Both the position numbers and the translations under genes were made by a program. Below the pieces are notes generated by a model. It saw nothing but the letters and a program-made list of their open reading frames with translations, ran no database searches and was not told the DNA's origin. Shown one piece after another: positions 7,301 to 39,894 of a stretch of 64,000 nt of DNA. Source of the DNA: Kutzneria viridogrisea (GTDB taxonomy: Bacteria; Actinomycetota; Actinomycetes; Mycobacteriales; Pseudonocardiaceae); NCBI GenBank assembly GCA_014138725.1, contig JACJID010000003.1:186001-250000 (forward strand), read 5' to 3'. The first letter of the stretch is position 1. Each line of letters begins with the position of its first letter.

Positions 7301-7831
7301 GGCTCAGCGGTGACCACGATCGAGACGGGAACCTTCAACCGGGCAGCCTCCATCCTCATCCGCTCCGGCTTCGATCACCGTCTCGCGGCCATTTCGGCGG
7401 CCACGAGTACCGACGCCAGGTTCGACTCAACGGCTGGCATGCGCCAGTGGATCGACGACCTCGACCCCGCGCTGGCCCTCAGCGAAGACTGGCCCACGCC
7501 CGAGTCACGGTCACGATGGGAGACCTTCGTCAACTCCTCACGGACACGCCGTTCGCGTCGGTGGAGCCGCCAGACCATGGACGTACAGGACGTCACCTGG
7601 TACGGGACGGTACCGGCCCCAGGCGTCTGGCTGCGCGTAACTGACACCACCCCAGGCGAGATCAAAATTTGGTCTACGGGCTTCGATCTGCTCGGGGAGG
7701 CAGCCGTCCTTCTCGATCATGAACGGCAAGGCGTCCTACGCGCTCGACAGCACCGTGCTGATGCCGGCATCCGTCTTCACTATCGCGGCCCCGGCGATCT
7801 GTTGCCGAGCACGCCAAGCGCTGACGTATAG
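4328..7831 (+). CDS. hamB: Hachiman helicase HamB
   Basis: An 1167-residue SF2 DExH helicase starting at GTG 4328 inside the end of hamA. A helical N-terminal region of about 300 residues precedes motif I LPTSAGKTRIAEL (~330-342), motif Ia VTPLRALSAQ, motif II VVLDEGHMIG (~429-438), motif III LSAVF and motif VI NVIGRAGRAF (~685-695). A long helical C-terminal region follows. The Ski2-like core, length and coupling to a DUF1837 gene fit HamB. Family knowledge: HamB is the ATP-dependent DNA sensor that controls HamA. All helicase motifs look intact and the frame is unbroken, so the system is probably functional. Confidence 0.9.
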   Translation: MAREAQELAEILTAATDAGFRGRLLARGQAQSMIRRDGVLPLDAPGFSSFLDADLLNYAYALLSTSLELLEIAEDDSAGQITLAQQGFIQSSFALEAATRNAASGADLVFHGLVAGAASHLGGYAARAFSLIHASRQSERLTPMEQTLADLLVRDLSSIERRTLTLRASAQVSDEALLAALTSAGSSVDDGSPSNEFGPVILLLSENYLSAVAAGLFAIEIGSRDLLESAFEELRDGEQASSDVSAPGPWWIYRLTRHLLGGLFDTSLETNIPHDPPSGVADRVERWNYLRRNFVASLLVRERSEIDLWPSQLHVVDRIFQDLRDLVVALPTSAGKTRIAELSILACLAQQRRTVYVTPLRALSAQTEHVLTRTFSPLGIRVSSLYGSMGTSDVDEDALRSSEIVVATPEKLDFALRSDPSVLNDVGLVVLDEGHMIGASEREVRYEAQIQRLLRRSDASERRILCLSAVFPSGPDLDDFVAWITDDEPDGLHRESWRPTQQRFGLVEWRKDHARLSITLGAEQPFIPRYFEEKKPSGRRRKMFPADQREHVIATGWRLVEEGQTVLVFCPQRNSVEPYARAIIDLHARGLVTSVLPPGIDLSDALAVGAEWFGADHPILRCLELGVAIHHGALPGPFRREIERLLQRGILKVTIASPTLAQGLNLSASAVLFHGVRRGTDLLKGSEFANVIGRAGRAFVDTEGLVLYPIFNKTRQRRRDWLSLTQEDGGKTLRSGLIEIGLALLRRMIESQGHASVEPLLNYLTGGPEWSLPIVPHETAEGHAAAAASWQSNLALLDIGILSIVGDGDQDSAADAATQIVADALRASLWERQLSRFDNTAATAIRGLVYSRTRHLWRTGTPSQRRGWFLAGLGANTGSELSRVSGRIIALAGQAETAILEEDHETATDLLVAIADTVFEMQAFEPETKLDNWASVLRHWIRGSALSAVSGDSVEVAQFIEGDVIYRLVWGMEAARVYEAAQSNPDADTLSGSAVTTIETGTFNRAASILIRSGFDHRLAAISAATSTDARFDSTAGMRQWIDDLDPALALSEDWPTPESRSRWETFVNSSRTRRSRRWSRQTMDVQDVTWYGTVPAPGVWLRVTDTTPGEIKIWSTGFDLLGEAAVLLDHERQGVLRARQHRADAGIRLHYRGPGDLLPSTPSADV

Positions 7832-8046: not shown

Positions 8047-8579
8047 TCAGGATGCGTAACGGTACTCGTTGATGACTCCCTCAAGGACCCGGGTTCGGAG
8101 GAGCCTTGGGGTCTTCAAACCGGGCCGGCAGGGGTTTGCTCCTGTGCCTCGGGTGGTCGTTGGTTTCGGGGCCGGTACGGTCGATGCCTGTTGTAGTGAT
8201 CTTGGTATGCGGTGAGGACCCGTCGGGCGTGGGCCTCGTTGACGATCAGGACGTGGTCGAGGACCCCGGCGGATGGTGCCGATCACTCGCTCGCAGTGGG
8301 CATTCATGCGCGGCGACTGGGTGCACTGAGCAGCACGTCCATTTCCTCGGCTTCGAAGACAGCGGCGAAGGAGGTGGTGTACTTGCGGTCGCGGTCACGG
8401 AGGCCGAAGCGCGGGGACTCGACGCGGCTGCCCAGTTCGCTGGCGAGGTTGCGGGCCGGCTGGGTCGCCCACTGCGCGGTGGGGTGCGCTGTGACGTCGG
8501 GGATGTGGAGCTTACGGGTGCGGCGCTCGAGGAACGCTAGCATTTTCGGAACCACACGATGCCGGCGTTCATTGAGCAC
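8047..8579 (-). pseudogene. Frameshifted integrase-core (rve) transposase relic
   Basis: Two overlapping minus-strand segments rebuild the C-terminal half of an rve-type DDE transposase. The first (8304-8579) reads AFLERRTRKLHIPDVTAHPT...FGLRDRDRKYTTSF. The second (8047-8307) reads RMNAHCERVIGTIRR, breaks frame, and resumes at TRVLEGVINEYRYAS; the missing middle (HVLIVNEAHARRVLTAYQDHYNRHRP-like) is present in the neighbouring frame. The N-terminal HTH half is absent. This fits an IS481/IS3-like element of actinobacteria reduced to a scar. Its upstream end abuts the stop of the UvrD gene. Confidence 0.8.
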
Positions 8580-10743
8580 GTGCTCGATGAACGAGGAACG
8601 GGCTCGGCCTGCCGTGCCAGGTGATCGCTAGGGCTTCTCGGGCACGGGTGGCAGCGACGAACAGGAGTGAACGTTCGGCGCGCAGGTCCTGGGCGTGCTG
8701 AAGGGGGTCGGCCGCGGCATCTGTCAAGGCTGCCGGCTGCGGCACACATTGGTCGCTGACACCGATGACAGCCACAGCGCGGTATTCAAGCCCCTTGGTG
8801 CGGTGCATGGTCATCACGTGGACGTAGTCCCCGACGCGGGGAGCCTTCCCGGCGTCGACACGGATCGCTCCGGTGCCCGAGGACTGCAGCGCGTCAAGCG
8901 CTGCATCGCATAGGGCTCCGGTGCGGGCTACGACGGCGATGTCCTGCGGCAGTATCCCCGCTTCTTTCCATCCGGCAACGCGATTTACGAGTGCGCTCAT
9001 CTCGGCTCGTACACTCGGATAACCAGTGAGTTCGGCTTCACGGCCACTCAAGACAGAGCGATAGCCGGCCAAGTCGTCCGCGCCGCCGTCAAGATCGTCG
9101 AACTGCTCACGATCTAGAAGGTCTCCCGCAGCGGCAAGGATCTGCCGGGTGGTGCGGTAGTTGAGGCTCAGCTTGTGGGAACGGCCTCGGATGTCGATAC
9201 CGAGGGATCCGAGGGTGACTCGGTTGTCGTAGATTCGCTGATGTGTGTCACCGCATACGAACAGGTCGTTCGGCCCTTCGGGAGCCAGCGCGCGCAGCAG
9301 CCGCCAGTGCGCGGCATGCAGGTCCTGGGCCTCGTCGACGACGATGTGCGCGTATTGCTGGCGTGGTTCGAGCCCTGCCTCAGCGATTCGTGCAGCCGTA
9401 GCGGCGAGTTGCTTGAAGCCGACGGCTTGGTCCTGCTCGAGACGGCGTTCGTACTCTTCGATCAGTGCCCAGATCTCGGCCCGGTCGGCGCGGTTGATCC
9501 GCAGTCCTCGACCTCGGCGACGCGCGGCAAAGTAGTCATCGCGCGTTTGCAGGCCTTGGGCGAGCACTACCTGGGTCCATTCACCAAGCAGGAACCGGCT
9601 GTCGAAGCGTCCAGGTTCGGCCTGCTCAGTAAGCAGATCGCGCCAACGCTTGAGCAGCTCCAGGTCACCAAGCATCGCGGGCACTGTGGCGGACGGATGC
9701 CGCGCGACGGACGTGGCGACCTTGTCGATATTACGTACGGTCACCGCGCTCGCGAGCTCTTGGCCGCCAAGGTCCTTCAGAAGCCGTTCGAGCTGGTCGG
9801 CCAGGGTGGTGGTGAAGGTGGTCAGCAGGATTCTGCCGCGTCCCTCACCGCGCTGGGGATCAGCGAGGGCGGCGACTCGGTGCAGCGCGACGACGGTCTT
9901 GCCTGTACCGGGGCCGCCGGTGACGCGCACCGGTCCGTTGTAGGGCTTGTTCTTGGGCCGGTAGGCGAGTTTGCGCTGTTCGGGATGGAGGAAGATGCGC
10001 CATTCGGAGAACGGGCGCAGCAGGTTGCGCTCGAGCTCTTGGGCGTCGGAGGAAACGACGAAGGTCTCCAGCGTCGCCGGGCGAGTGAGGGCTGCCTCGT
10101 AGTCGCCACGTTCCGCGTCAGTAAGAGGCGTGTCAGGCTGTTCAGGTGCTGTGACCTTCTGCCAGATCTCTTCGGGGCACTTGCCGTCGTACAGGGACAA
10201 CAGGACGTCCCGGGCGAGCTTCGGCAGGAACTCGCACACTCCAAGCAGGGCATCCTCAGTGCGCAGTTCACGCAGCGCCGGAATCAATACCTCGTTAACG
10301 CCGAGGCGCACCAGGTCGGCGTCCGAGACGCCATCGAACAGGCCGGGCATAGCGTCCGGTCCGACCAAGGGTGCACCGGAGGCCGAGTTGCGGGTGCTTT
10401 CCTCGAGACCAGATAGGTCCAGCAGCTCGATGCCGCCGGTGACCTTGTTGATGTCCATGGTCAGTCCCTCGGCCAGCTTGTAGGCCTTGTCGTGCTCGAG
10501 GACTGTGACGAGGTAGAAGGTCTCGCCGTCGCGCAATAGGACGGCGCGGAAGTTGTCGTTCACTCGCGCCGTTCGCACTCGGCGGTCGCGCGCGGCCTGT
10601 GGCTGCTTGAGGTTGAGGCTGTTAGCGTTCGGATTCAGCTGGAGGGTGTGCAGGAACGCGATCACTAGCTTCTGAACGGTACCGTCGAGCTTGTGGTAGG
10701 CCTTGTCGAAGGTGTCCGTGCGGACGAATTTGCGCTCAGACAC
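8569..10743 (-). CDS. UvrD-like SF1 helicase with RelE/ParE-like N-terminal domain
   Basis: 724 residues from GTG 10743, which overlaps the upstream gene's stop by 8 bp. Residues 1 to ~110 resemble a RelE/ParE fold: RTDTFDKAYHKL, ARVNDNFRAVLLRD and a closing VLEHDKAYKLAEG. SF1 motifs follow: GGPGTGKTVVAL (~270-281), VVDEAQDLH (~465), LNYRTTRQIL, MTMHRTKGLEYRAV and SLLFVAATRAREAL. The protein ends with the usual GRPSPFL tail, so it is complete although a transposase relic abuts it. It is the last gene of the five-gene array. Role inferred: DNA translocase or processing factor; whether the RelE-like part is a nuclease or a binding module is unknown. Confidence 0.82.
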   Translation of the reverse strand: MSERKFVRTDTFDKAYHKLDGTVQKLVIAFLHTLQLNPNANSLNLKQPQAARDRRVRTARVNDNFRAVLLRDGETFYLVTVLEHDKAYKLAEGLTMDINKVTGGIELLDLSGLEESTRNSASGAPLVGPDAMPGLFDGVSDADLVRLGVNEVLIPALRELRTEDALLGVCEFLPKLARDVLLSLYDGKCPEEIWQKVTAPEQPDTPLTDAERGDYEAALTRPATLETFVVSSDAQELERNLLRPFSEWRIFLHPEQRKLAYRPKNKPYNGPVRVTGGPGTGKTVVALHRVAALADPQRGEGRGRILLTTFTTTLADQLERLLKDLGGQELASAVTVRNIDKVATSVARHPSATVPAMLGDLELLKRWRDLLTEQAEPGRFDSRFLLGEWTQVVLAQGLQTRDDYFAARRRGRGLRINRADRAEIWALIEEYERRLEQDQAVGFKQLAATAARIAEAGLEPRQQYAHIVVDEAQDLHAAHWRLLRALAPEGPNDLFVCGDTHQRIYDNRVTLGSLGIDIRGRSHKLSLNYRTTRQILAAAGDLLDREQFDDLDGGADDLAGYRSVLSGREAELTGYPSVRAEMSALVNRVAGWKEAGILPQDIAVVARTGALCDAALDALQSSGTGAIRVDAGKAPRVGDYVHVMTMHRTKGLEYRAVAVIGVSDQCVPQPAALTDAAADPLQHAQDLRAERSLLFVAATRAREALAITWHGRPSPFLVHRARAQ

Positions 10744-13700
10744 CGAGAGCCTCCAGTTCGGTCGCCGTGATTGAGCCGGCGCGTTCGATCCGCCAGCCTG
10801 CCGCCTGGTACGCGGCATCTCGGTCGGGGTCCTCGTCCACAACGAGCGCGATCTTCGCATGCGGCCATGCCAGCTCCGCATCCCACGGGTCGGATTGATC
10901 ACCTGGCACGTCGAGTTCGAACCCCACTTCAGGAACGGCGACCTGAGGTCGCGTGGCGAGGACGGCGAGGATGTCCGCCACCAGCGGAGATGCCAGCTCC
11001 GCCGCCCGCGCCCACGAGGCAGGCAGAGCGCGCGGAGTATCTGTCGGCAAGGCGCTCACAAGCAGGGCGAGACGGTGTGGGTCGAAGGCCGCCGCACGGC
11101 TCGCACAGGTTTGTTCGAAGCCTCGTTCGCGACCACCAGAGACGTGACCGCTCAGGAGTTGCAGCAGATTCCCCCAGGCCATCCACGACGCCCAACGGTC
11201 CCGATGGCCAGGTTGCTCCACGGCCGGCACCGTGTCATCAAGCACAGTGATCGCGCTCCACGCGGAGAAGTCCCTGCTCTCCAGGTCCATGAGAGCCAGG
11301 ATCCGGCAGCCGGTCGCAGGGGCGTAGTCCAGCATCATGACCTCTGACCCGCCGCCCTTGAGTTCGAGATCGCCGCCAGTGAGCAGTCCGGGCAGCGCGA
11401 GGGCAAGGTCGGCACGGCTCGCATTGGTCTGCCGCGATGCTCCGCGTAGCCCGGCCGCCAGCGCGGCGGCCCGGCGGCACCAGCGGTCCGGGTCCGGGTC
11501 GGCGAGGTAATTCAGCAGTGCCGAGACCGGGTTGGCCAGCGCTGGATCAAGCGAGTCGGCGGAGTCGTGGGCGCGGATCCGGCGGTGCATCGCGCGCGCC
11601 GCAGTCAATGCTGCCTCGTCGAATAGCGCAAAGCTCGGCGCGGATCTCGCGTTCGGGTCAGCCACCGCCTGTTCGAAGGCCTGCACGTCTTCCCAGGTCA
11701 GCTGCCAGACCAGGATTCCTTGGCTGCGCAGCGCAGTGCGCTTCGCAGTGTCATCCGCGATCCGGTTGAGATGTGGGGAGGCGTGGAACGCGTACCCGTC
11801 GAGGAACACTGCGACGGTTGCGCTCGGCCCGTCGGTACGCGTGATGAGGAAGTCGGGCTCGCTGCTGACGGCCGCGTCAACGCGCCGGTGGTCCTGCAGC
11901 AGCCAGCGGGTTCCGCCGCTCCCGTTGGGGTGGGCGATGCGCAGGTCGAGTTCCACGCCGCGCCCACCGGCCCGTGGGCTAATCGTACTTCGGTGCGGTA
12001 CGCCGCCCCAGTTCTCGCGCCCGCCCCAGGCCTGTAGGGCCTTGATGAAACGCTTCTCCAGTTCGCTGTCGGCGAGTTCGTCGATCCGCACCCCGGTGAG
12101 GGTGTCGAGAGTCTTCACCGCCTCGGGGTCCGAGATGTCCCAGCCGCGCAGGATTTCGTCAAGGAGAAAGAGTGCGCGTTCCCTCGAGGCGAAGGGATGC
12201 TCGCTAGAGCGCACGAACCGCAGCAGGCAGCGGTGACAGGGCTGGCGCTCAGAGTCCTGACAGGGACACGCGGCGATGACGTCGCGGGCGATGGTGAGGA
12301 CTAGGTGCATCACCTTCCGGTCGGCGAGGTGTTCGAGGTAGCCGGTGCCGCCGGGCAGTCGGTCGTAGAGCACGAGGAAACGGCGGCGCAGATCCGTATC
12401 GCCCCCAGGCATCGTGGCCAGGACGGCAGACAGGTGGTTGGGCTCGCCGCCGTAATACTCAGTGATGCCGAGCAGCAGCGCCGCCTTGAACGAGATGAAG
12501 TTCTCCTCGATCTCCAACGTGGAGACGGGCAGGAGCATCCGCAACGCCTGAGTGCGAAGCTCATGCGCAAGCACGACTGTGCGCGTCTGCTCTGCCTCGA
12601 CGCCAGCATGGCGTTGAGGGCACCAGCCGCGGTGCCGGGTGCCGACCCTGCGGGCCTTGGTGTCGTACGCCTGCGGGTGTGTGCCGCGCACCGCACCGCA
12701 CACGGGACACGTTTCGAAACCGGGTGCCTGGACCTCGGCGCCGGCCACGAATAGCGGCCGCCCGGGAGTGCCGTCCGGCCCGAAGTTCAGGGTCCTGATC
12801 TGAGCGACGCGCGCGAATTCGACCCCGAACAGCGCGCCCTGGGTCCGCCAGGCGCGCCTGCCCTGCGGCTGGCCTGGGTCGATGTCGACGAGAGTCGCGG
12901 TGCGGAAGGTGCGTCGGTCGCGTTCTTCACGATCGTCGGTGACCTTCGCGTCGTCGCGCCTCTCCCGCGAGGCCACCCGCTCAGCGCGTAGCACCCTGAC
13001 CTCGGAACCTGCGTCGGCGATGGCCTTATCTCCACAACGGGGACACTCGGCCGGCTTCACGGTCTCGTCGGTGGCGACGTACCCGCACTCGGCGCACAGC
13101 CTCCAGGCCAAGCCGAGCTGCGCGTCGACCCGCCCCCCGCCGGTGCCTGCGAGGTCGAGCTTGTCGATGACGTACTTCGATCCGGCGGTGTAGTACGTGT
13201 TGCCGGGCGCGAGCTCGGTCAGGGCGGAGGCGGCGTCGCGTCGATGCTCTCGATGCGCTTCTTCGAAGGTGCCATCGGGGTTCTTCCACCACAGCTCGGC
13301 GTCAAGGTAGATCGAGTCGTCCACGAGCGTGTAGTTGGGCAACACGCCCAAGCGCACCAAGGCAGACAGCGAGTTCTCCTCAGTCAACGCCTCCAGGCGC
13401 CTGCGCACCTCGGCGCGCTCGGCATACAGCTCCCGCTTGGACTGCGCACGCTCAGTGTCGGTCCCGCCCTCCCCCAGCGCGTCGAACGCCCGGCCGATAC
13501 CTCGCAGCCGTTGTTGTAGAGCCTCGCGCCGCTTGAGGAATTCGCGGGCGGCGTTGCCGATCGCAAGTTCGATCCCGGATGCGGCGAACTCGGCCAGAGA
13601 CGCGCGCGATGCGTCCTGCATCTCTGGAAAGAGCGCGGCGAAGCGTTCCGCGAGCACTTCATGCTGCTGGACGGCGCGGTCCAACAGTCGACGCAGCCAG

Positions 13701-16700
13701 CCGTCCGGTGCGAGACCGGAGGTGAACAGCAGCCCGATCTGCGGGGGCATCTGATGCGGGGGCATCATCGTCCCTTGCCACAGCGACCCGTCAGCGGCGC
13801 GGTCGAGCAGGAACGCGGTGTACTGCCGGCGCAGGATCTCAATGGCGTCGAGATAGCAGTCCGGCGGGACGATCCGCCCCGCGAGCATCGCCTCGGGCTG
13901 GTGCAGGTAGTACTGGTTACGCGCCCCGCGCGGGATGACGGCCGCGACGAAGGCGTTGCCGGTCTTACGTCCAGCGCGTCCGATGCGCTGTGCGTAGTTC
14001 GCCGGGGCGCCCGGGACGGAGGTGAGAAGTACGGCTGACAGGTCGCCGATGTCAATGCCCAGTTCCAGAGTTGGTGTGCACGCGAGCACGTTGGGGTCGA
14101 AGGGATGCCGCGGGTTGCGCTTAAACCGAGTCTCGACGTCTTCCCGTTCGACGCGTGTCAACGCGCCGGTGTGCTCGGTTGCGATGACCTGGCTGGGCCG
14201 GTCGACCGAGTACAGGCGCCGGTAGAAGTCTGCGGAGTAGTCCCGGTCGTCGGGCTTGAACACACCAGAGCAGCGGTGCCGTAAACACGGCGTGTCCAGC
14301 CACGTCTCGCGCGTGCCGGGGGCGACAGTCATCCTCCACGTACAGGACGAGCAGCGCACCCCAAGTTCGTTCACATGCTCTTCGGGCCGGCCGTGAACGA
14401 GGGAGTGCACGAGCACGTGCTTCGGCTTGAGGCTGTAGACCCGCGAGCCATTGGCAGTGGTGTCAGTACGCACGATCCCGTGATGAGCCAACGTGCGCAG
14501 CGCGATGCGGTTCAGCTCGCGGGCTTCGGGCAGCTTGGCCTGGAGCGTGCGATATGCCCAATCCTCCAGGTAGCTGGGCGTGTTGCCCTTCGTGCCCAGC
14601 TGGTCGAACTCTGTCCTGCCTACGTTGCCATCGACAAGGAACCTGGGCGCCGCCAGGCCCCGCGGAAACGCGGGCATGCCCTCAGGCCGTCCGCCCCACA
14701 CCGGCCAGCGCCGCACACCGGCCTGATCCACGAACTTAGCGAGCCAAGGGTGGTAGAGGGCCCCACGTAGCCGCATCCGTTCGAGCACACCGCGCACGTA
14801 GGTGAGGTACTGGGTCTCTGTGGTGGGCAGCGTGTGCCGACCCGCTATCTGCTGGCAGGCGTTGCGTAGGTCATCGATGACCTTGATGGGTTCGGGGATC
14901 GAGATCTCGACGGCGGCTGTGTGTGTCATCTCCAGCGTTCGGCCCAGTCGGGAGCGCAGGCCGAATTCCAGCAGCGTGTTGAACACGAGCCGGTCATTGA
15001 TGCGTTCCATGCCGGCTTCGTCACCGTGTCCGTCGAAGACGGCCATGACGAGCGGGTCGTCGCGCAGATCTGGCGGGATCAGCGCGGCCAGGCGCTCGCG
15101 TAGAGCATCTGGGTTCTCTTGCTCGGTCACAGACTTGGCTGCGCTCAGAGCAAGTTGTGGCAGCGGGATCGGCGTGTCGGCGGCGAGGTGGTCGGTGAGA
15201 AGGCCGCGCAGGGTGAAGGTGAACGCCCGGTGGCCGATGAATCCGGCTCGATGCGTCGCGTCCTGCACGGCGTCGACGAACGCAAGCAGCCGGCGTTCGT
15301 CGCCGATCAGGTGTCGCTCGGAGAACAGCTGTGTCGTGAGGACGGAGGCGAGCGTCGCGGAGCCCGCGCCGAGGAAGCGCATCCCGTCGTCAAGTCCGCA
15401 GGAGGGGCAAGTGTCGGCATAGTCCTCTGGCAACCGGCCCTGGTGGGTGAGCACCGCTACGGTTTGGTCGGGCTGGCCGGTCGGGTTGAACTGCAGGGTA
15501 CGTTCTTCGGCGTCGAGGTGCATGACCTCGTTCTCCCCAGGACGCGCCCGGAGCATCCAGCGGACCTTGCCGGTGCGTCGGGCGGACTCCTTGTAGATGT
15601 GCAGCGGGCGGATGTCGAGGGTCTGCCAGTCGAGTTCGGTAGAGACAGCAGCCCAGCCTGATCGCCCACAGTGCCGGCAGTATCCGGCTGGGAGATGGCA
15701 GCGGTACGCGGGCTCCACAGCGTTAGATGGCCGATCGCGTGCTTGATCGTCCAGAGCGGCTTCCAGCGGCGAGCCGTGCTCGCTGCTGCCCGCCTCGTCG
15801 ACGCGGCGTTGTGGGTAGACGCCCAGATTAAGCTTATTGGCCTTGGTGTCGCCGGTTGGGCCGTCGTCGTCGTACCAGCGGAAGTGCGGGGTGTCGGTCG
15901 CAGCGCGAATGACCCGGCGGACTTCCCGGACCCACAGCTGGGCTTCGATGCGTAGGAACGGCCTTGCCGCCTTACCCGCTACTACATTCTCGTCTTCAGC
16001 ACGGGCGCGACAAACGATCGCGACAAGACGGGATAGGCCCGCGGTGAATACCTCAGGGTTCTGTTCGAACGCCTGCCGCCAGCGTGTACCACCCCCATAG
16101 CGCACGAACCGCTCCATGAACGCCTCGTCGAGCAACACCGGACCATCTCCGGCCGCGTACAACAGAGCGTGAACGAGGCGGTGATGGGCAAGTTTCCGGC
16201 CGAGCGCAACAGGATCCGAGGCGTCGACTCCGGCGACAAGGCGGGCGATCGCGTCCAGATTCGGGCCAGTGGGGCCACGGTCCAGGAGCGGATCACCGGC
16301 CTCGATCAGGTCCTGTGGCGCGGGAACCGGCAGTTCGTAGTCGACCTCCACGACTTCCTGCGGCGCCTTGCGATCCTCTCCGATCAATGCCGCGGACTCG
16401 AATTCGCAACCGAAGACCTTCCCTGCGAACTCCAGCAGCTTCGTGTGGTCGTCACGCACAGAGCCGTCAACGTCGCGCTTGTCGCTACGGCCATTGTCAC
16501 TGCTACCGGCGAGAGTGGCGGAGGTTGCTACCGGCGTGATCGTGCCGAGTGGCCTTCCCGGTTGAGCTTTGCCGGTGGACGCGCCGAGACGCCGCAGCAG
16601 CATCGCGACATCGGTGCCCTGCGCCCCGTCATAGCAGTGGAACTCGTCGAGCACCACGTACTGAAGCGAATCTGACCGCCACAGCGCGACATCGGCGACA

Positions 16701-17422: not shown

Positions 17423-17425
17423 GGA

Positions 17426-20400
17426 CTAAGCGACCTCCGAGTCCTGGACCGGCGGGTACTCGCCAGCGGCGAGGCGTCGCTCGAACTCCTCGTAGGCGCG
17501 AGTCATCTCCGCCTCACGATCCGGCTTGACCCAGTCGGACGGTGGGACGACGTCCTCGGCGTCCGGGTTGAGCTTCGCCTTCTTCCAAGCCTTTATAATC
17601 TCCGTCTCCGCGTCAGTCTGCCGGACACCCACATTGTGGGTGGACGCGCCAATCTTGTGACCGTCCGAATGGAAGAACATCTCCCACTCGTACTTGCGCA
17701 GCACGGCGAACTGAGACCGGTACATTGCGCAAAGCTGTTCGGCGCTCAAACCGAGCATCAACGCGACAAGGGCGTCGATCTCGACCAAGGCCATGCGCCG
17801 GTCATAGTCCGTGCGCAGCGGAGTCGACATACCCCAGTCCGGGTTGACGGTCTGCAGCGCGACAGTGGCGTTCGACTCTTTGGCCGTCCAGCGGTCCATG
17901 AGCCAGGCTTCGTCGAACAGCTCGTTCCAGATCGGCGCATAGTCGCGGGTCAGGCAGTTGAGTCGGAGTGTACGTAGGAGCAACGGTGTCGTCAGCGGAT
18001 GCGAAAGTGGTGCAGGGAACTGGCGCGCCAGCTCAATGTTGACCTTGGAGGTGCCAGATGCCTTGACAAGATAATCAAGCGGCAGCGATGACCAAAGGCC
18101 TGCTACGGCAGCTGTCTTCCGCCGATCCTCAAGCGCCATCGAAAACACGGTATGCACGTGCGTAGGGCCGGGCAGAAGCAACGCCACATGAAGGGCCCGC
18201 TCCATATTTGCCACGGTCATATTACGCCAGGTTACTCGCCAGAAATTCGGCAGATAGACACCAGAATCATGTTTGATTTGAGCTCGTTCAAATTCATCTC
18301 GACCGGAAGCACGTTGATAATTCGTCCGCGGGAGCGCGTTTTCACCAATGACGGTTAGATCCCACGGACTGTAATCCTTGTTCGACCTACAACCCGGATT
18401 TGGCTGCTTCGCAAAAGGCGTAGCTACCGTAAAAAGTGGCCCCTGGAGTACCACCTCCTCCCACACCTCCGGGATCTCAGTTCGCCATACCGTGTAACCA
18501 TTTTTCTTAGCCTGATCTTCAAGGAAGCCAAGCGACCATTCGTACCTATAATTCGACGTTCGTTCATCAAAGTTGGCAAGAATACGCAACGCCTCATTGT
18601 CCGCCACTGTAACCGGCCGCATCATTCGGGCATATCTAGCCGGCGTTCCCGGTGCATCAACGAGCCGCGCCCAGGCCTCCAACACTTCATCAGTAACAGT
18701 GATCACACGGTCTCGGTGAGGTCTAAAATCCCAGCCGCCACTCGGAAGTTGAATGCCCGGCACCTCGCCATCACCATTATGCCCAAAGGATCCGTCAGCA
18801 GTCCCCGGATGAGCAAGCCGACTTACCTGCATGTAGCACACTTGCTGCGACCCGCCGTACACCGCACATACAAATGTATTATTGTTGTCTATTTCCTCAA
18901 AGAGGAGGATGTGATTGCCGAACTGAATGAGGCGTCGCAGCCGTTCATAAGCGGCTGCGCGAAGCTCGCCGCCAACTGGATCGACGAGAAAAGATGCCGG
19001 ATGAATCAAGCCAACGGTCCCACCTGTCGCCAGGTTTCGCCAAGCGCGTTCCATAAAGTTCATATACAAGTTTGTCTTGAGTCCTGCGAGAACTTTATGC
19101 TCAACCTGTTCACCTAGATGCTCATTTAGGCCGGCCCACGAGGTTAGCTCTTTAAGATATGAGCCTCTCGCGGCACTTTCGGTAACGATCTCTTTCCGTC
19201 GCGACTCGAATACTTGTTGCGGAATCTGGTCCACCAGAGCAAGGTACGGGTCGAACTCGGCTAGGATCAGTTCGTCATCCCAGACAGGTCGAACCCACGG
19301 CGGGTTTCCGACCTGAAGGTCAAAGCCGCCTCGCGCAAATACCTGAGCAAAGCGCAGTTCCCAGTGGAAGAAGCCTTCACGCTCCGCGATCTCTCCCACG
19401 GTTCCGAGCCATGGGAACCTAAACGTGAGATCGAGCATGTCCACCATACCCTTGTTCTCCGGGCCGCGAGCGAACCGCCTATCATTCTCGTCCTCCTCGG
19501 CCAACGCCTCGAAGTCGTTGCTCGGCGCGAACAATCCGAGCGTATCTCCGGTCGCACTGTTGGCGTTGCCGTACCTTCCGCCGCCCGACTTCTTGCCCTT
19601 CGGTAGGGGGATGCCGAGCGCACCTTCGAGGAAGTCGAGCCACTGATCCAACGTCGGCGGACTTGGCGTGTGCGGCTGACCGACCGGCCAGAACCACAGC
19701 GCACACCAGGCGTTCATCACCAACTCCAAGCGTTGCAACGGTGACTCGGGATCGTTGAGCGCCCGCTCGACCTGCTCCCTTGTCACCGCACCGCTCGACG
19801 CCTGCAGCGGCTCAGCCTTCGGATCTAGGCCCCAGACCTCGATGCTACGCCGCACCTCGTTCTCTGAGACCGTTAGTCGCTTCTTCGCGAGCGTCCACAA
19901 TTGCTCAACCCTCGTGCTAAGCGCGAGCAGTCGCTTGGTGTCTGTCGCATTCGGGGACCTGCGAATATCTGTGCGCCACTTGGCAAGCGCGTTACGCTCC
20001 TCGGCCGCCAGTTCCTTGGCCTGCTTGGCATCGGCGACCGCACCCCAGCCGTGCGCGGGCAGCAGGAAGTGGTGGATCTCGTCCGCGCCTACTGTGTGGT
20101 CTTCAGCATCTTTACGCAGCGGACGTTCGGTCGGCGGTGTGGACAGCCAGGCCTTTCCTTTGAGCTGTGGCTTGGCGTACACAGCCCGCCTCGCGCCGAT
20201 CAGCGAGTTACCCCGCCGCAGGTGCAGACCGAACCAGGGCGCCTGCAATCCCTCGTGCATCGCGTTGAGCCACAACGAGACCTCGGCCAGTTCGACAGCG
20301 GTCTCATTCAGGTCCACCCCATAGCTATTGTGCAGCGCGATGTACGCCTTAACCTTCTGAAGCTCAGTCTCGTACTGGACACCAACCGGGAACTCCTGGG

Positions 20401-22357
20401 AGTCCTCCCGCTCGGCCATCTCGTGCCGGGTCCGGTTTAGATACGCCACTGCGAGCTGCCGGATCGCCTCATTGAGAAACGCGCCGGACCCCAGAGCCGG
20501 CTCGCAGATCGTCAGGTCCAGGATCTCGCGGGCCGTCATCTTCGGCGGGTTCGACTCACTACCGTCTTCGCCGATCAGCTCCGCGAGAGCGTGGCGGACC
20601 GTGAACTCGGTCAGGATCTCCGGCGTGTAGTACGACGCGGATCGCTGCCGCTCCCGGCCCGACAGTCGGTAGACGAAGGAGCCCCTCCGGTGCACCTTCC
20701 TGCGACGCTCGCCGGTAACCAGATCCTCCTCGGTGACGAACACGTCGTCCGCGTACTCACCGGCACGGTCGGCCGGTAGTACCCACGTGCCCTGCGCAGG
20801 GTCGCCGTCCTTCGCGACCTCATACAGGTCCTCGGCAGCGAAGAAGCCCGTGTACGACATCAGGCCCTCGTACACTGCGCCGAGCTGGTTGATGCCCAGC
20901 TGTGCGTACGAGACGTAGCCGCGGCCGCCCCTGGCGGCCTTGCCACGGGCGTCCGACGACGTGAGCATCAGTTTCTCGAGGACCAGATGCAGCACGCGGT
21001 TACGCAGCCGCGTGTCCACAACCATCGTGCCGACCGTCAGCGTCTTGCTGATCAGCGGGATCGCATTGTTCTTGAACAAGTCGCTGCGCAGCGGCTCGAA
21101 CCTGATCCCGGCGTCCGCATCCGCGCCGCCGAGTTCCTTATCCTTAATCGCGGCGCGTTCGGCCGGGGTCAGCGGGTTGTGGCCTTGCTCAACCAGCCTG
21201 AACAGCAATGCCAGCGACTCGTAGTAATGCAACCCCGCGGCGGATTCCTCTGGCAGGTCATACGAGACGAGTTCGCCTAGCCGGGCCAGGCCGTAGCCGT
21301 TCTGGTACGAGTCGTCGTTGCTCGGCAGAATTCCAAGCTCGGGACGGGACTCGGCATAGAGCAGAAAGAGGACCCGATATAGGTACCGTAGCGCCTGCTG
21401 GGTAAGCCGCCGTGGTAGGTCCGCGCCGAGTTCGCTGGGATCGGCGCCCGCGTCGTTGATGCGGTCCACGATCTCCTGTGCGATCAGCTCGACCGAGATT
21501 CGCAGGCCCTCGCGTAGCTCTTTCGAGACGCCGACCGCGTGCTTACGCCCCTTATCGACCAGGTCACCCAGCGCCGTGCGACCGTCGTGCGTAAGCAGCG
21601 ATTCCGCGCCGAAGAGTGCTGCCGCAGTCTCCAGTTCGCCACCGGAGGTCGTGTCGTTTTGGCCGAGCGCGGTGCCGATGTCCAAGCCGAGGAAGCGGCC
21701 CTCGAACCAGGAGCTGCTGTCGGCGAGTACGAGCGCGCCGCCGGCGAGCAGCAGCACGTAGCGCGGCGCGTCGTCAACGCCAAGTAGGAAGTTTATCGCG
21801 TCCAGTGCTAGATCAATACTCTGCGAGCCGTCTAGCCTGATAGGTTCCAGCAGCAATGAGCCGCTGTCCGCGTCGATTGCCTTATCGACGTCGCCCGCCC
21901 AGGTCGCGTCCAAGGCAATCAGCTCTAGCCCGCCCGGACCGGTGACGGTAAGCGCGGTCTGGAGCGTGCGCTCGGAGCCCAGGTGTTGCACCGTCAGCTG
22001 CCCGCGCCGCTGCACCTGGTGCGTCTCCGTGCTCTCCTTTGGATAAGCTAGGGCGCTTAGCAGTATGTCGCTGAAGTCGCGCTGCCGGTCCCGACGGCGT
22101 GGGTTCGTGGCCAAGACCGTGCGTGGATCGTCGTCGTCCTGCGCTCCGTCACCCGTCAATCCTTCGGTGATTTCGCTCGCGGCCTTGTTGAACGCGCGGC
22201 CGAGCGTACGGAGGCCTTGGGCAGAGTTGGGCAACTGCGCGAGCTGGGCGGCCTTCCAACGAGCGCGTACCCCGCCGAGATCCTTGGCTAGTAGCTCTGC
22301 CAGGTAGTGATCTGAGAGGTACTCGCCCTGGTTCTTGATCGCCTTGAACTCAGCCAT
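17426..22357 (-). CDS. Large N6-adenine DNA methyltransferase (DrmMI/PglX-like)
   Basis: 1643 residues. Starts MAEFKAIKNQGEYLSDHYLA. SAM motif I is EPALGSGAFLNEAI (~residue 618) and catalytic motif IV GNPPW (~1018). A long C-terminal target-recognition/helical region ends near PSDWVKPDREAEMTRAYEEF. Length and layout match large gamma-class methylases of DISARM/BREX-type systems rather than compact R-M methylases. Role inferred: self-DNA marking. The start overlaps the SNF2 stop by one base (TAATG). Composition is uneven: about 18.13-19.3 kb, just after motif IV and where target recognition is expected, is clearly AT-richer than the flanks, suggesting recombination of the specificity region. 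Confidence 0.87.
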   Translation of the reverse strand: MAEFKAIKNQGEYLSDHYLAELLAKDLGGVRARWKAAQLAQLPNSAQGLRTLGRAFNKAASEITEGLTGDGAQDDDDPRTVLATNPRRRDRQRDFSDILLSALAYPKESTETHQVQRRGQLTVQHLGSERTLQTALTVTGPGGLELIALDATWAGDVDKAIDADSGSLLLEPIRLDGSQSIDLALDAINFLLGVDDAPRYVLLLAGGALVLADSSSWFEGRFLGLDIGTALGQNDTTSGGELETAAALFGAESLLTHDGRTALGDLVDKGRKHAVGVSKELREGLRISVELIAQEIVDRINDAGADPSELGADLPRRLTQQALRYLYRVLFLLYAESRPELGILPSNDDSYQNGYGLARLGELVSYDLPEESAAGLHYYESLALLFRLVEQGHNPLTPAERAAIKDKELGGADADAGIRFEPLRSDLFKNNAIPLISKTLTVGTMVVDTRLRNRVLHLVLEKLMLTSSDARGKAARGGRGYVSYAQLGINQLGAVYEGLMSYTGFFAAEDLYEVAKDGDPAQGTWVLPADRAGEYADDVFVTEEDLVTGERRRKVHRRGSFVYRLSGRERQRSASYYTPEILTEFTVRHALAELIGEDGSESNPPKMTAREILDLTICEPALGSGAFLNEAIRQLAVAYLNRTRHEMAEREDSQEFPVGVQYETELQKVKAYIALHNSYGVDLNETAVELAEVSLWLNAMHEGLQAPWFGLHLRRGNSLIGARRAVYAKPQLKGKAWLSTPPTERPLRKDAEDHTVGADEIHHFLLPAHGWGAVADAKQAKELAAEERNALAKWRTDIRRSPNATDTKRLLALSTRVEQLWTLAKKRLTVSENEVRRSIEVWGLDPKAEPLQASSGAVTREQVERALNDPESPLQRLELVMNAWCALWFWPVGQPHTPSPPTLDQWLDFLEGALGIPLPKGKKSGGGRYGNANSATGDTLGLFAPSNDFEALAEEDENDRRFARGPENKGMVDMLDLTFRFPWLGTVGEIAEREGFFHWELRFAQVFARGGFDLQVGNPPWVRPVWDDELILAEFDPYLALVDQIPQQVFESRRKEIVTESAARGSYLKELTSWAGLNEHLGEQVEHKVLAGLKTNLYMNFMERAWRNLATGGTVGLIHPASFLVDPVGGELRAAAYERLRRLIQFGNHILLFEEIDNNNTFVCAVYGGSQQVCYMQVSRLAHPGTADGSFGHNGDGEVPGIQLPSGGWDFRPHRDRVITVTDEVLEAWARLVDAPGTPARYARMMRPVTVADNEALRILANFDERTSNYRYEWSLGFLEDQAKKNGYTVWRTEIPEVWEEVVLQGPLFTVATPFAKQPNPGCRSNKDYSPWDLTVIGENALPRTNYQRASGRDEFERAQIKHDSGVYLPNFWRVTWRNMTVANMERALHVALLLPGPTHVHTVFSMALEDRRKTAAVAGLWSSLPLDYLVKASGTSKVNIELARQFPAPLSHPLTTPLLLRTLRLNCLTRDYAPIWNELFDEAWLMDRWTAKESNATVALQTVNPDWGMSTPLRTDYDRRMALVEIDALVALMLGLSAEQLCAMYRSQFAVLRKYEWEMFFHSDGHKIGASTHNVGVRQTDAETEIIKAWKKAKLNPDAEDVVPPSDWVKPDREAEMTRAYEEFERRLAAGEYPPVQDSEVA

Positions 22358-25300
22358 TACGCACGCTCCCCGTTCCGCTGGGGCACCAGGACACCCAGCA
22401 CGCGGACCATCGGCTCACCCACGGTCACAAGTGACCGCATAACCTCGTTCAAGTCGGTGGCGATCTTCTCCACCTTCCGCTTCTCCCGCGTCGCCATGCC
22501 CGGCAACACCAGCTGCTCGGCCTTCGACTCTCGGGTCTTTCGCCACGCGTTGAGCCGCTGCTCGTAAGCGTGCAGCGGAGCCATCAACTCATCTTCTTGC
22601 CTGTCCTTCAGCCGGCGCATTTCAGCGCGCGCGGCGGTGACCGCAGGCTCGATCAGATGCTGGAACGCCGCCGGGTCGACGTCGCTGTTCGTGTTGTACA
22701 ACGTCTTCGTCTCCAGCACCCCGACGCGCCCAAGCACCGGCAGCAGGTCCTCAAACCGAGGCCTGCTCGCCCCGCCGTCCAGGCCGCTCATCGCGAGATA
22801 CGCAAGAACCGTAGGTCGGCCCTGCGCGTTCGAATACATCCCCTGGATCAGCACCGTCGGCTCCGCCACTGCGCAAGCGATCACTGGCGCGCTGTTGCGG
22901 GCAAGGCGCGCCAAAGCCTTGTCCACCAGCCACTCGATGACCGGATGACGGTCCGCAAGGAACGTCACATCGGGCCAACCGGAGGAATCAGCTCGCTGCT
23001 GCTTCGTCGCATGCCGACCTCGGCTACGCCCGTTCCCGCCGTCCTGCGCCACCTCATCTAGCTTCTTGCTCGCTGCGCGCTGCCGGGCATAGTCGAGGCG
23101 TCGTTGGGCCAGTTCCGATGAGAACGTGCCACGCAGCGTCGTGAGCACCTCGTGGTCTCTCAGGTACTCCTCCGGCAGCACCCTGAGCCGCCGCTGCAAG
23201 TCCGGCGCGGGTTGGAAGGTGAGCAGCTCCGGTTCGTGCTCCTCGTCGTAGTGGAAGCCGACCGACTGACGTGGGTCGCCGTACACTTCCTCGAATGCCG
23301 CCTCGGTGAACGCCTTCGTGCTTGGGAACAGGCGGAGCTCCCTGTAACGCTCCTGCTTGCCACCCACCGGTTCCGTCGCGCCCACGCCATCACCATCTGG
23401 CTCGGCGATCCACGCCTCGAAGTCGTCGATCGGTGCGGCGGGCAGTTCCTCTTCGACGTCGCGGCCCTCCAGGAACGCCTCACCGATCTGCCGTTCCTCG
23501 GCGAATTCGTCGTGCAGGCCCATCACCGCCGCCGCGTCGCCGAAGGTGCGATGTACCTCGTCCTCTCGCTCCACCAGCCTGCGCGAGACCTTGAAGTCAG
23601 CATCCTGGCGCTTGTCGTCGCCCGGTCGCACATGCAGCAGGACACGCATCTGCGGGTTCTTGAGCTGGCCGTACCGGTCGATCCGGCCGTTGCGCTGCTC
23701 CAGGGTGATCAACGACCAGGGCACGTCGTAGTGCACGAGGTGGTGACACTCGCGATGCAGGTTCACACCCTCAGCCGCGATATCGCCGGTCAGCAGGACC
23801 CGCAACTCGCTGCTCGCAAGGCCGAAATCCTTCACATTTTGCTGCTGCTCGACGTCCGACAGCCCACCGTGCAGCATCCGCACCGGTCCCTGCGTCGACT
23901 TCGCCCCCGCAGGCATCGTGAACCCCAGCGCTTCTGGCAGTTGCGCCCGCAGGAAGTCGAGCGTCGCCCTGCGCTCAGAGAAGATCACCACACGGTTCTG
24001 GGACTTTGACCCAATCCCAATCTCCTTGAGCTCGCCAACAAGGGCCTCGAGCTTCGCGCTGTGCTGCATGCCGACCTCGGCGACCAGATCACGCAGCGTC
24101 CCCAGAGCCAACTTCTCCGCACGGCGGTCTGTGTGGTGTTTCTTCTCATCCTCCGCGATCGTCTCGAAGCGGTTGGCAATCGTCTCAGCCAGCGCCGCGT
24201 GAGACGACAAGAAAGCCTTGAGGAGCGTGAACGGGAACAGCTTCGCACCCTTGCCTGTCACCGGGGCCGACTCGCCGTCCGGAGGCGAGATCCAAGTCTG
24301 ATATAGCTCTTGGAACACGGCCTCCTCCGGGCCGGTCGCCGCCGCGTACACGAATCGCGGCTTCTCCCGAGCCTTCCAGTGGTCGCCGATCTCGCTGTCC
24401 ACGTCCGGGCTTGTCTTGTGCCGACGCACGTACAGTCCAGCCATCTGCTCCGCGTCATAGTCGGCGGTATCTGGAATGGCTGTCGGATCGAGCAGGCTGA
24501 TCAGCTCGCCGAACGACTCCTTTTTGCCGTTGTGCGGGGTCGCGCTCGCCAGGATCAACGCGTGCGTACGCGGCGCGAGGATGCGGGCGAGTTCGTTGTT
24601 CTTCGCGCCGACGTTCACCAGCTTATGCGACTCGTCGATCACGACCGCGTCCCACTCGATGTTCCCGAGGGCATAGCGGTACTGGCTCGACTTGAGCGTG
24701 TCGATCGAGATGATCGCCCGCTTGTAGTACGTGAACGGGTTGCGCCCCGCCGGGATCTTCTGGCGCACCCGCTGGATGCCGAGCGAGTCCAACCGTACGA
24801 GCGGGATCGCGAAGCGGCACCACAACTCGTGCTGGAACTGCTCCAGGATGTGCCGCGGCGTCACCACCAGGATTCGCTCGCCCCGCCCGCGCCGGATCAG
24901 TTCAGCCAGGATCAGCCCGATCTCCAACGTCTTACCGAGCCCCACCGCGTCGGCGACGAGCAGCCTCGGACGCAGCCCGGCCAACGCGAGCCGCGCGGGC
25001 TCACGCTGGTACACAAGGTCGTCGAGCAGGTGCGTGCCGACTGTCGCCAGACGCCGCTCGCTCTCTGGGAGCGGCGTCGCACGCAGCACCGCCTCCCAGT
25101 AAAGCCGTGAGCGGCGGAACTGCGGCGAATCGTCCGTGACCAGCGTGGTGTCCTCGGGGCGCAGCGGCACGACGTCGTCAAGCTTCGTGAAGAACACGGC
25201 GCGCTGCTCGCGTACCAGCGGCGAGATCCCCGTGACCGTCAGCCGCTTGCCGTCCCTCTCGGTAACCTCGACCTCCGAGACGACCCACTCCTCGTCCCGG

Positions 25301-25371
25301 GCCTGCACACGCATGCCGACAGACCAGCTATCGATCGCCCCGGCCGCCACAGCCACCAACTCGCCTCTCAT
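22357..25371 (-). CDS. SNF2-family helicase (DrmD-like)
   Basis: 1004 residues. The N-terminal ~90 residues include GMRVQARDEEWVVSEVE, typical of DISARM-type SNF2 proteins. Walker A is DAVGLGKTLEIGLILAELI (~137-155), motif II VVIDESHKLVN (~245) and motif VI EQRNGRIDRYGQ (~556-567) preceded by TGDIAAEGVNLH. A ~350-residue helical C-terminus follows. No nuclease motif is seen. The family translocates on duplex DNA; in DISARM DrmD is required for part of the protection. It lies 37 bp downstream of the kinase gene and its stop overlaps the methyltransferase start, so it is in the same operon. Confidence 0.87.
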   Translation of the reverse strand: MRGELVAVAAGAIDSWSVGMRVQARDEEWVVSEVEVTERDGKRLTVTGISPLVREQRAVFFTKLDDVVPLRPEDTTLVTDDSPQFRRSRLYWEAVLRATPLPESERRLATVGTHLLDDLVYQREPARLALAGLRPRLLVADAVGLGKTLEIGLILAELIRRGRGERILVVTPRHILEQFQHELWCRFAIPLVRLDSLGIQRVRQKIPAGRNPFTYYKRAIISIDTLKSSQYRYALGNIEWDAVVIDESHKLVNVGAKNNELARILAPRTHALILASATPHNGKKESFGELISLLDPTAIPDTADYDAEQMAGLYVRRHKTSPDVDSEIGDHWKAREKPRFVYAAATGPEEAVFQELYQTWISPPDGESAPVTGKGAKLFPFTLLKAFLSSHAALAETIANRFETIAEDEKKHHTDRRAEKLALGTLRDLVAEVGMQHSAKLEALVGELKEIGIGSKSQNRVVIFSERRATLDFLRAQLPEALGFTMPAGAKSTQGPVRMLHGGLSDVEQQQNVKDFGLASSELRVLLTGDIAAEGVNLHRECHHLVHYDVPWSLITLEQRNGRIDRYGQLKNPQMRVLLHVRPGDDKRQDADFKVSRRLVEREDEVHRTFGDAAAVMGLHDEFAEERQIGEAFLEGRDVEEELPAAPIDDFEAWIAEPDGDGVGATEPVGGKQERYRELRLFPSTKAFTEAAFEEVYGDPRQSVGFHYDEEHEPELLTFQPAPDLQRRLRVLPEEYLRDHEVLTTLRGTFSSELAQRRLDYARQRAASKKLDEVAQDGGNGRSRGRHATKQQRADSSGWPDVTFLADRHPVIEWLVDKALARLARNSAPVIACAVAEPTVLIQGMYSNAQGRPTVLAYLAMSGLDGGASRPRFEDLLPVLGRVGVLETKTLYNTNSDVDPAAFQHLIEPAVTAARAEMRRLKDRQEDELMAPLHAYEQRLNAWRKTRESKAEQLVLPGMATREKRKVEKIATDLNEVMRSLVTVGEPMVRVLGVLVPQRNGERA

Positions 25372-25408
25372 CGCCGTACAGGATCTTTCAAATCAGCGTA
25401 ACTGCAGG

Positions 25409-26563
25409 TCAGCCGTCGTAACGGTCCTGCCGCTTGTAGATGGCGCTGTTCCATTGCTCGGCCCAGTGTCCCCCGAGCGGCTTCCCCTGACTGGCTGCAC
25501 CGCCTGGGCCTTGCGGCGCGCCACCGGACCGGCTTGAGGTGGCCACCAGGTCACCCAGCGCTGCGTCCGCGCCCTCGTAGCCGTCCCCTGCCTCCGCCTT
25601 GCCATCCGGCGGCCCACCGGCTACCGGCGGTGGGCCAGCCGAGACGGCTTCCGCCTCCTCGTGCCGCATGATCGCGGCTAGGAAGGGAGGGCTGAGGGGC
25701 GGCGCGGTGTCGGTGAACATTGCGACGCCCTGGTCCAACAGCCGCGGCAGCGCGACCTCAAGAATCTCCGACACTGTTGGGCGGGCGGTCGGGTTCCCGA
25801 CGAGGCAGCTCTCCAGGAGCTCGTACATGCCATCGGGTACGCCATCCAGATCAGGCATGCTGCCGTGCAGCCAGTACTGATAGGTAGCCGGGGTATACGG
25901 AGCGTGACCCGCCACGGCGTAGACCGTAGTCGCGGCCAAGCCGTACACATCGCTTTGCTGCGTGGCGGAACGGATGTCCATCATCTGTTCGGGGGCCGCG
26001 AAGAACTTCGTCCCTGCCCAGGTGGCCTGATTGGTGATGGTCGGCCCGTCTATCGACTTCGACAAGCCGAAGTCGATCACCTTGACGCCATCGCGGGCCA
26101 TCAGCACATTCCCGGGCTTGAGGTCCCGGTGCAACAAGCCCTCGGTGTGAATATGCAGCAGGGCCTCAGCGACCGAAGACAGCAGCCACCAGCCCCCGCG
26201 CTCGCTCAGCGGCCCCTGATCCTGCACCAACTTGTCCAAGGCTGGCGCTGACACATAACGAGTGGCCAGCCAGGGTGGATCGGCGTCAGTGTCTGCGGCC
26301 ACGAACCCGGCCGTGAACTCGCCACCCACTCGGCGGATCGCCTCCACTTCGTGTGCGAGGCGCCGGTACCAGGTCGAGTCGGCGTTCTCCGGCACCACGA
26401 TTAGCTTCACTGCCACGGGTCGTGCCGAGGTCTGCTGATGACCCACGTAGACCCTGCCGTAGCCTCCCTTGCCCACATACCCCGACAGCCGGAACGGGCC
26501 GATCCGCCGTGGATCTTCCGGCCGCAGCGGCTCCACGCTCACCAGACAACCCCATTCCGACAC
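25409..26563 (-). CDS. Eukaryotic-type Ser/Thr protein kinase, first gene of the helicase/methylase array
   Basis: 384 residues. An intact Hanks-type kinase: glycine loop GKGGYGRVYVG, VAVKLIV lysine, catalytic HRDLKPGNVL, DFGLSKS, GTKFFAAPEQ activation-loop end, and the conserved Arg region NPTARPTVSEIL. No transmembrane helix or PASTA repeats are visible, so it is cytosolic, unlike PknB. The ~100-residue tail is Gly/Pro/Ala-rich and probably disordered. ATG 26563 or GTG 26542 could be the start. It heads the array 37 bp before the SNF2 gene. Kinases also occur in Pgl/BREX-type (PglW) and other defence systems, which supports a sensing or regulatory role here; substrate unknown. Confidence 0.85.
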   Translation of the reverse strand: MSEWGCLVSVEPLRPEDPRRIGPFRLSGYVGKGGYGRVYVGHQQTSARPVAVKLIVVPENADSTWYRRLAHEVEAIRRVGGEFTAGFVAADTDADPPWLATRYVSAPALDKLVQDQGPLSERGGWWLLSSVAEALLHIHTEGLLHRDLKPGNVLMARDGVKVIDFGLSKSIDGPTITNQATWAGTKFFAAPEQMMDIRSATQQSDVYGLAATTVYAVAGHAPYTPATYQYWLHGSMPDLDGVPDGMYELLESCLVGNPTARPTVSEILEVALPRLLDQGVAMFTDTAPPLSPPFLAAIMRHEEAEAVSAGPPPVAGGPPDGKAEAGDGYEGADAALGDLVATSSRSGGAPQGPGGAASQGKPLGGHWAEQWNSAIYKRQDRYDG

Positions 26564-39869: not shown

Positions 39870-39894
39870 CATGCCCTCCCCGAGCCGTGTGTCG

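Follow-up and report, generated by a model that had tools for sequence, protein, structure and literature searches.

ARMADA Type II was defined in the main text of a preprint by Bell et al. (2025, PMC12458937) by a strict gene order, in which ArmA (BrxHII-like helicase) is followed by ArmB (PglX-like methylase) and ArmC (YprA-like helicase), and ArmC is almost always followed by ArmD, a GajB-like helicase fused to RelE. According to the same text, the Escherichia coli system acts against phages with a non-abortive outcome and needs all four Arm genes. The residues mutated there were ArmA K136/D236, ArmB G605/N971, ArmC K110/D234 and ArmD K266/D454, and the mutants G605A and D454N showed only a partial loss. 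A PglX-like methylase and a Ser/Thr kinase also occur together in the actinomycete Pgl defence (BREX type 2), in which the kinase is needed for defence; in the available part of that report, the catalytic Lys of PglW is required in Streptomyces coelicolor and phosphorylation is proposed to activate the methylase (PMC4365076). In kinase-bearing DndF proteins, too, a kinase is joined to a DNA-modification defence (PMC12839542, available part). Here, we describe a five-gene array in a 64,000-nt stretch of Kutzneria viridogrisea DNA (hereafter, the window). Judged from sequence, four of its genes are those of ARMADA Type II, and the remaining one encodes a Ser/Thr protein kinase, for which the name ArmK is proposed.

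The four core genes

All five open reading frames (ORFs) are open and lie on the minus strand in one tight run, as stated in a preliminary description of the window, which reported a single-strand array with gaps of at most 37 bp or overlaps. In gene order, the kinase gene and ArmA are separated by 37 bp, ArmA and ArmB overlap by 1 nt, ArmB and ArmC are 3 bp apart, and ArmC and ArmD overlap. ArmD most likely starts at the GTG at 10743 and not at 10902; GGAGG is found just upstream of this GTG, and the overlap with the ArmC stop is then 8 nt. This gene order is also seen in other actinomycetes, and the array is therefore not a product of chance.

The order and families of ArmA and ArmB are as in ARMADA Type II. 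ArmC is the third gene and carries DEAD, Helicase_C and MZB (presumably the DUF1998 region) in one chain, with DruE as its best PADLOC model; it shares 28% identity over 89% of its length with the homologue from an E. coli plasmid (L004). ArmD is fourth and consists of UvrD with an N-terminal RelE-like domain. For its N-terminus, an AlphaFold2 model (mean predicted local distance difference test score of 86.8) supports the predicted RelE fold; the best Foldseek matches of this model were the toxins YoeB, RelE and YafQ (best E value 9.4e-4).

In L004, all eight residues mutated by Bell et al. were found at the same numbers as in that work. The window conserves 8/8 of them as well: ArmA K147 and D246 correspond to K136 and D236, ArmB G623 and N1018 to G605 and N971, ArmC K114 and D259 to K110 and D234, and ArmD K335 and D523 (777-aa numbering) to K266 and D454. 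Furthermore, E1789, D1857, D1875 and H1880 in the ArmC tail were invariant in 35/35 aligned sequences and would suit the Vsr-type nuclease assigned to the ArmC C-terminus by Bell et al. (PMC12458937, main text).

Based on the gene set, the strict order, the RelE-GajB fusion and the eight residues, the four genes are identified by sequence as ArmA-ArmB-ArmC-ArmD of ARMADA Type II. The window thus shares with that system the four Arm proteins, their order, a RelE-UvrD fusion, a fused DUF1998-type Zn-binding domain and the eight catalytic residues. It differs from the four-gene system tested in E. coli in having a Ser/Thr kinase as the first gene, and none of the 64 loci sampled from its lineage lacks this gene. 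The preliminary description had labelled the array a non-canonical DISARM system that may correspond to or extend ARMADA. The second suggestion was borne out, and the DISARM label proved wrong for ArmA-ArmD. Among the parts that had been called non-classic, the helicase-DUF1998-nuclease fusion, the RelE-UvrD protein and the lack of DrmC are canonical for ARMADA Type II, and the kinase does extend it; a named system already describes four of the five genes but not the kinase. As for these parts themselves, the UvrD portion of ArmD was recognised by Pfam, as were the helicase and MZB portions of ArmC, while the nuclease tail is drawn from the conserved residues. Neither a PLD-type domain in the five proteins (Pfam) nor DrmC among the PADLOC matches listed was found, in agreement with the earlier statement.

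ArmB includes a region of distinct composition. The GC content at third codon positions (GC3) of the window gene is 0.50–0.55 over aa 1001–1400 and 0.75–0.88 before it. We compared 47 pairs of ArmB proteins (overlapping and not independent) with an identity of 85% or more over aa 1–950; 39 of them were less than 70% identical in aa 1021–1450 (median 0.55 vs. 0.91), and 16 also fell below 70% in aa 1500–1643. In the pair L002/L003 (L002 being an S. cellulosae plasmid locus), identity changes from 98% to 43%, and in the pair L014/L074 it is 94% ahead of this region, 55% inside it and 98% behind it. The segment aa 1021–1450 has been replaced between near-identical relatives in many loci. The drop in identity and GC3 is read as specificity swapping, and we propose that this segment is a swapped recognition region. 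The presence of such a recognition-like region suggests self-marking by ArmB.

The kinase gene and its product

Loci came from plasmid records, from genome contigs, from the family to which the window belongs (297 genomes) and from its class (394 genomes, drawn evenly). The contig set represents the best 80 of at least 550 relatives and so leans to window-like loci; ArmB was found in 27 of the family genomes and ArmA in 42 of the class genomes, the window's own genome being included in both counts. A total of 150 loci with ArmA and ArmB were obtained, from which five duplicates (leaving 145) and four loci with less than 1.2 kb upstream (L005, L037, L147 and L187) were removed, giving 141.

A same-strand kinase gene abuts ArmA in 64 of the 141 loci; in the remaining 77, no such gene occupies this position. 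In the ArmA tree (built with FastTree, which gave long-branch warnings for other parts of it), the 64 kinase loci make up exactly one side of a branch (Shimodaira–Hasegawa-like support 99). Neither side contains an exception, so that the kinase state changes once, compared with a mean of 46.6 changes after shuffling. Rare co-occurrence of the genes, raised in the preliminary description as what would undermine the array, is therefore not what was found. Between the stop codon of the kinase gene and a possible start of ArmA, the gap has a median of 65 nt and ranges from −46 to 258. The class draw yielded 43 loci: 24 with the kinase, 16 without it and three that were not assessable (L147 and L187, with at most 38 bp upstream, and L173, in which no ArmB was found). 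In two Streptomyces plasmids, a kinase gene precedes ArmA. None does so in the records from Tsukamurella, E. coli and Nostoc, although in Nostoc a larger kinase gene lies about 7 kb upstream.

A second set of 62 loci, made up of 60 of the 79 places listed for two more families and two loci drawn from the phylum (396 genomes), included 48 new loci and 14 already present in the first set. Several of the new ArmA proteins were 96–100% identical to earlier ones, and the short DNA available for L256 and L282 showed no ArmB. The expectation for each locus was taken from its nearest ArmA. Among the new loci, 46 were expected to have the kinase, which was present in 44/44 assessable cases (the remaining two have only 501 and 441 bp upstream), and both loci (2/2) expected to lack it did so. 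The phylum draw gave only two new ArmA loci, both without the kinase.

Based on these results, it is well supported that the kinase belongs to the operon. The kinase-bearing variant marks one actinomycete lineage of ARMADA Type II and is an extension of this system. Because the two non-actinobacterial loci in the ArmA tree (L004 and L006) have no kinase gene, its gain appears likelier than its loss. ARMADA Type II was already known, and its kinase appears to be the new part. The word "kinase" does not occur in the main text of Bell et al. (PMC12458937), no ARMADA kinase was described in the titles and abstracts listed around ARMADA, DISARM and kinases, and none was found in the available parts of PMC12904381, PMC13192584 and PMC12839542.

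The catalytic residues of the window kinase are K53, D147 (HRD) and D164 (DFG), and the corresponding Lys and two Asp are kept in 64/64 ARMADA kinases. By eye, the C-terminal part is mostly a Pro/Ala-rich linker, after which a short conserved motif follows: [LIVM]RxxY in 52/64 and W...W...R...[YF] in 12/12 of the window's group. This tail is present in 64/64 ARMADA kinases vs. 2/31 other kinases with the stop in view, but one of these two is itself a duplicate copy of an ARMADA kinase; the other, in a different context, is apparently a chance match. In the new loci, 42/44 kinases have the exact tail pattern and two have near variants. Beyond residue 290, the kinase ORFs contain no strongly hydrophobic stretch (the highest mean over 19 residues was 1.59). 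Kinase and ArmA distances are correlated (Spearman 0.83; highest of 200 permutations 0.17), as expected for linked genes inherited together.

The PADLOC models PD-T4-6, mad6 and Stk2 match the kinase domain, these matches being generic to it, and the NCBIfam AfsK match (224.6 bits) is far below its cut-off of 1300. In a kinase tree of 120 rows, the ARMADA kinases form the window's group of 12, a group of 50 and a separate Glycomyces pair; the pair joins the 50-type group in a reduced tree (31 of the 64 ARMADA kinases), and the ArmA tree divides the same 64 loci into 12 and 52. The ARMADA kinase groups lie among AfsK-like kinases.

Proposed control by the kinase and alternatives

We suggest the following mechanism. 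ArmB would methylate host sites by means of its swappable recognition region and thereby mark self. Unmodified invading DNA would be processed by ArmA, a SNF2/RapA-like motor, and ArmC, a YprA-like helicase with a PD-(D/E)xK nuclease; ArmD, the RelE-UvrD protein, would also be required for this action on unmarked DNA. The soluble kinase may sit on the ARMADA complex through its flexible linker and a C-terminal docking peptide and phosphorylate at least one Arm protein, which would license or restrain the attack upon infection. By analogy, such control would parallel the role proposed for PglW in the Streptomyces Pgl system (BREX type 2). As the best explanation of the locus, a kinase-bearing variant of the ARMADA Type II anti-phage operon, with phosphorylation control by a tail-docked kinase, seems to us quite probable; what we infer is the phospho-switch with its docking, substrate and direction and, besides it, methylation as the self mark and protection in this host. 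A defence role of the kinase-type operon at the window locus is likewise predicted. Ser/Thr residues specific to kinase-type loci, namely ArmA T983, ArmB S831 and ArmD S231 (724-aa numbering), may serve as leads only.

A more specific form of this proposal has, in our opinion, about even chances. ArmK would be a fifth obligate subunit that docks by an R-x-x-Y or W-W-YGG peptide and, by phosphorylation, turns the helicase-nuclease on or keeps it off, as an independent parallel to PglW; the slot would possibly have been refilled once by an AfsK-like kinase with its own version of the docking tail.

Several points weigh against the explanation of the locus given above. The tail pattern was derived from the same 64 sequences in which it was counted. 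The lineage-specific T983, S831 and S231 may only reflect ancestry. The C-terminal domain of ArmC had no significant Foldseek match (best listed E value 0.13), with weak TnsA and PvuRts1I matches among unrelated ones. The E. coli ARMADA works without a kinase, which is thus not generally needed (PMC12458937, main text). Opposite-strand kinases are found nearby in 11/77 kinase-less loci, eight of them in Nocardia: six lie no more than about 0.7 kb from the ArmA ORF or overlap it (L038, L047, L070, L119, L121 and L175), and five are 3–6 kb off (L032, L036, L041, L043 and L052); in the kinase tree, ten of the 11 fall with non-ARMADA kinases and the remaining one is placed separately. The starred branches of the 120-row tree force two changes and leave two or three groups, a single origin is borderline in the reduced tree (31 of 64; approximately unbiased test, p-AU 0.057), and the best listed matches of the window kinase in the 394 genomes are AfsK-like kinases located elsewhere in these genomes (37–48%). 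No ARMADA kinase of the class draw was among these listed matches, for which four candidates were scored per genome. Taken together, the two forced changes, the borderline single origin and the AfsK-like best matches suggest that the kinase slot may have been filled twice.

The kinase could instead be a separate effector that phosphorylates host or phage proteins on infection and halts growth, with ArmABCD acting on DNA alone. Kinases alone can be defence genes, and Stk2-type defence kinases are thought to halt growth by phosphorylation. The intact catalytic residues would fit this role, and so would the PD-T4-6, mad6 and Stk2 matches, were they not generic to the domain. However, a conserved tail behind a linker and strict co-inheritance with ArmA fit a complex partner better, and a non-abortive outcome was reported for E. 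coli ARMADA (PMC12458937, main text), though that system has no kinase. We therefore regard a separate effector as rather unlikely.

It is also conceivable, though quite improbable, that the kinase serves only to tune expression or to link ARMADA with host signalling, as a linked regulator outside the defence reaction. AfsK-like kinases serve regulation in streptomycetes and their relatives, and the nearest non-ARMADA relatives among the matches listed are of this type. On the other hand, the tail is conserved across divergent kinase groups, and of the ORFs in the 3 kb preceding ArmA (14 largest clusters), none is common to most kinase-type loci except frames on the opposite strand that seemingly overlap the kinase gene.

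A further reading is a class 1 DISARM locus in which parts were lost or became fused. DISARM class 1 shares with the window a related SNF2 helicase and methylase, with matches to DrmD (273.9 bits) and DrmMI (184.5 bits), and a YprA-family helicase. In the window, however, the methylase reaches 972 bits with REase_MTase_IIG, ArmC is far closer to DruE (284.5 bits) than to DrmA (52.4 bits), the helicase and DUF1998-type parts are fused and carry a predicted fused nuclease, there is no separate drmA or drmB, DrmC is missing among the listed matches, RelE-UvrD and kinase genes are present, and the architecture and order of ArmC-ArmD are those of ARMADA Type II; DISARM membership is rejected as extremely improbable. 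Chance adjacency of the kinase is rejected with the same firmness: the own genome does have 24 kinase matches, including that of the window, and opposite-strand kinases occur in the 11 loci listed above, but a same-strand, adjacent kinase in 64/64 vs. 0/77 loci splits the ArmA tree one-sidedly, and the new loci agree.

Other defence systems were compared with the array as well. DruE is the PADLOC model closest to ArmC, but the partners are ArmA (SNF2 helicase), ArmB (methylase) and ArmD, and neither DruH nor any other Druantia model was among the matches listed, so Druantia was rejected. BREX type 2 was rejected because PglZ, BrxC/PglY and PglW were absent among the matches of the five proteins (PglW model, 29 bits vs. 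a cut-off of 990); BrxL was not seen in the array either. MADS is a defence operon that combines methylation and a kinase. Its MAD6 kinase model matches the window kinase at an equivalog score of 106 vs. a cut-off of 460, and no other MADS proteins were among the matches listed. Compared with PglW, the window kinase is small (384 aa) and lacks NERD and the other domains described for PglW in the available part of PMC12839542.

Locus layout, neighbourhood and significance

Features of the array in the window and the evidence for them (positions refer to the 64,000-nt window)
Feature	Position	Strand	Evidence
Kinase (proposed ArmK), Ser/Thr protein kinase, 384 aa	25409..26563	-	Pkinase PF00069, E 9.6e-37
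ArmA, BrxHII/RapA-like SNF2 helicase, 1004 aa	22357..25371	-	SNF2-rel_dom + Helicase_C (Pfam, NCBIfam, PADLOC)
ArmB, PglX/YeeA-like N6-adenine methyltransferase, 1643 aa	17426..22357	-	PADLOC REase_MTase_IIG 972 bits; Pfam Eco57I; NPPW at N1018; mapped residues
ArmC, YprA/DruE-like helicase + MZB (MrfA Zn-binding) + predicted C-terminal nuclease, 2228 aa	10736..17422	-	DEAD, Helicase_C, MZB
ArmD, RelE-like domain + UvrD/GajB-like helicase, 724 aa	8569..10743	-	UvrD; ORF open to 10902 (777 aa)
Kinase C-terminal tail motif WAEQWNSAIYKRQDRYDG, possible docking peptide	25412..25465	-	W...W...R...[YF] type
ArmB variable region, aa 1021–1450, proposed swapped target-recognition region	18008..19297	-	Low GC3; identity drop between close pairs
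ArmC predicted Vsr-type PD-(D/E)xK nuclease domain	11687..12067	-	E1789, D1857, D1875, H1880 invariant
ArmD predicted RelE/YoeB-fold domain	10450..10731	-	AlphaFold2 model + Foldseek

A Hachiman pair lies beside ARMADA in convergent orientation, with HamA (268.9 bits) at 3466–4338 (+) and HamB (1457 bits) at 4328–7831 (+). On the other side are a DUF4365 gene (27593–28165, +), a PDC-M02B candidate defence gene (564 bits; 28162–29328, +) and an MrcB_N protein gene (29700–30839, +), and an NB-ARC/TPR protein is encoded at the left edge (174–2585, +). The region looks like a defence island. A large RHS-repeat/DUF6531 protein (34633–38541, −) is encoded next to a borderline PPE-family match (38628–39983, −). 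In the own genome (10.25 Mb), 8 of the 27 integrase-family matches, one of the eight being below the cut-off, are located at 105–303 kb of the window's contig (C3, on which the window covers 186001–250000), and none is inside the window.

In kinase-less loci, ORFs of about 590 residues (14 loci) and about 720 residues (13 loci) lie shortly before ArmA in the same orientation. They cluster with the DUF1998 gene and the helicase of L001 (loci L001, L013, L016, L027, L127, L128, L130, L131, L135, L165, L172 and others). In L001, the sole locus checked, the upstream ORFs are clear DrmB and DrmA (222 and 810 bits), and this locus is a DISARM-ARMADA hybrid.

The ArmB-ArmC junction looks like a cargo slot. 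More than 1.5 kb separates the two genes in 25/145 loci (for example, L022, L032, L044, L118 and L124), and 19 more have no ArmC in the at least 6 kb seen. Ten ORFs from such places, including the stretch downstream of ArmB in L048, were tested: five passed the Pfam cut-off (AAA_21, HTH/DUF5753, GmrSD, SMC_N and an AAA/UvrD_C_2 helicase), one was below it, and four had no match.

These results bear on how large restriction-like systems such as DISARM, Druantia and ARMADA spare the host and sense infection. The ARMADA kinase adds to the kinases joined to DNA-modification defences, such as PglW, MAD6 and kinase-bearing DndF. Its distribution is a natural experiment: among the loci sampled, one branch has the kinase throughout and the other lacks it entirely, while the four core proteins are alike. 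If the phospho-control is true, the same machine would exist with and without control by phosphorylation.

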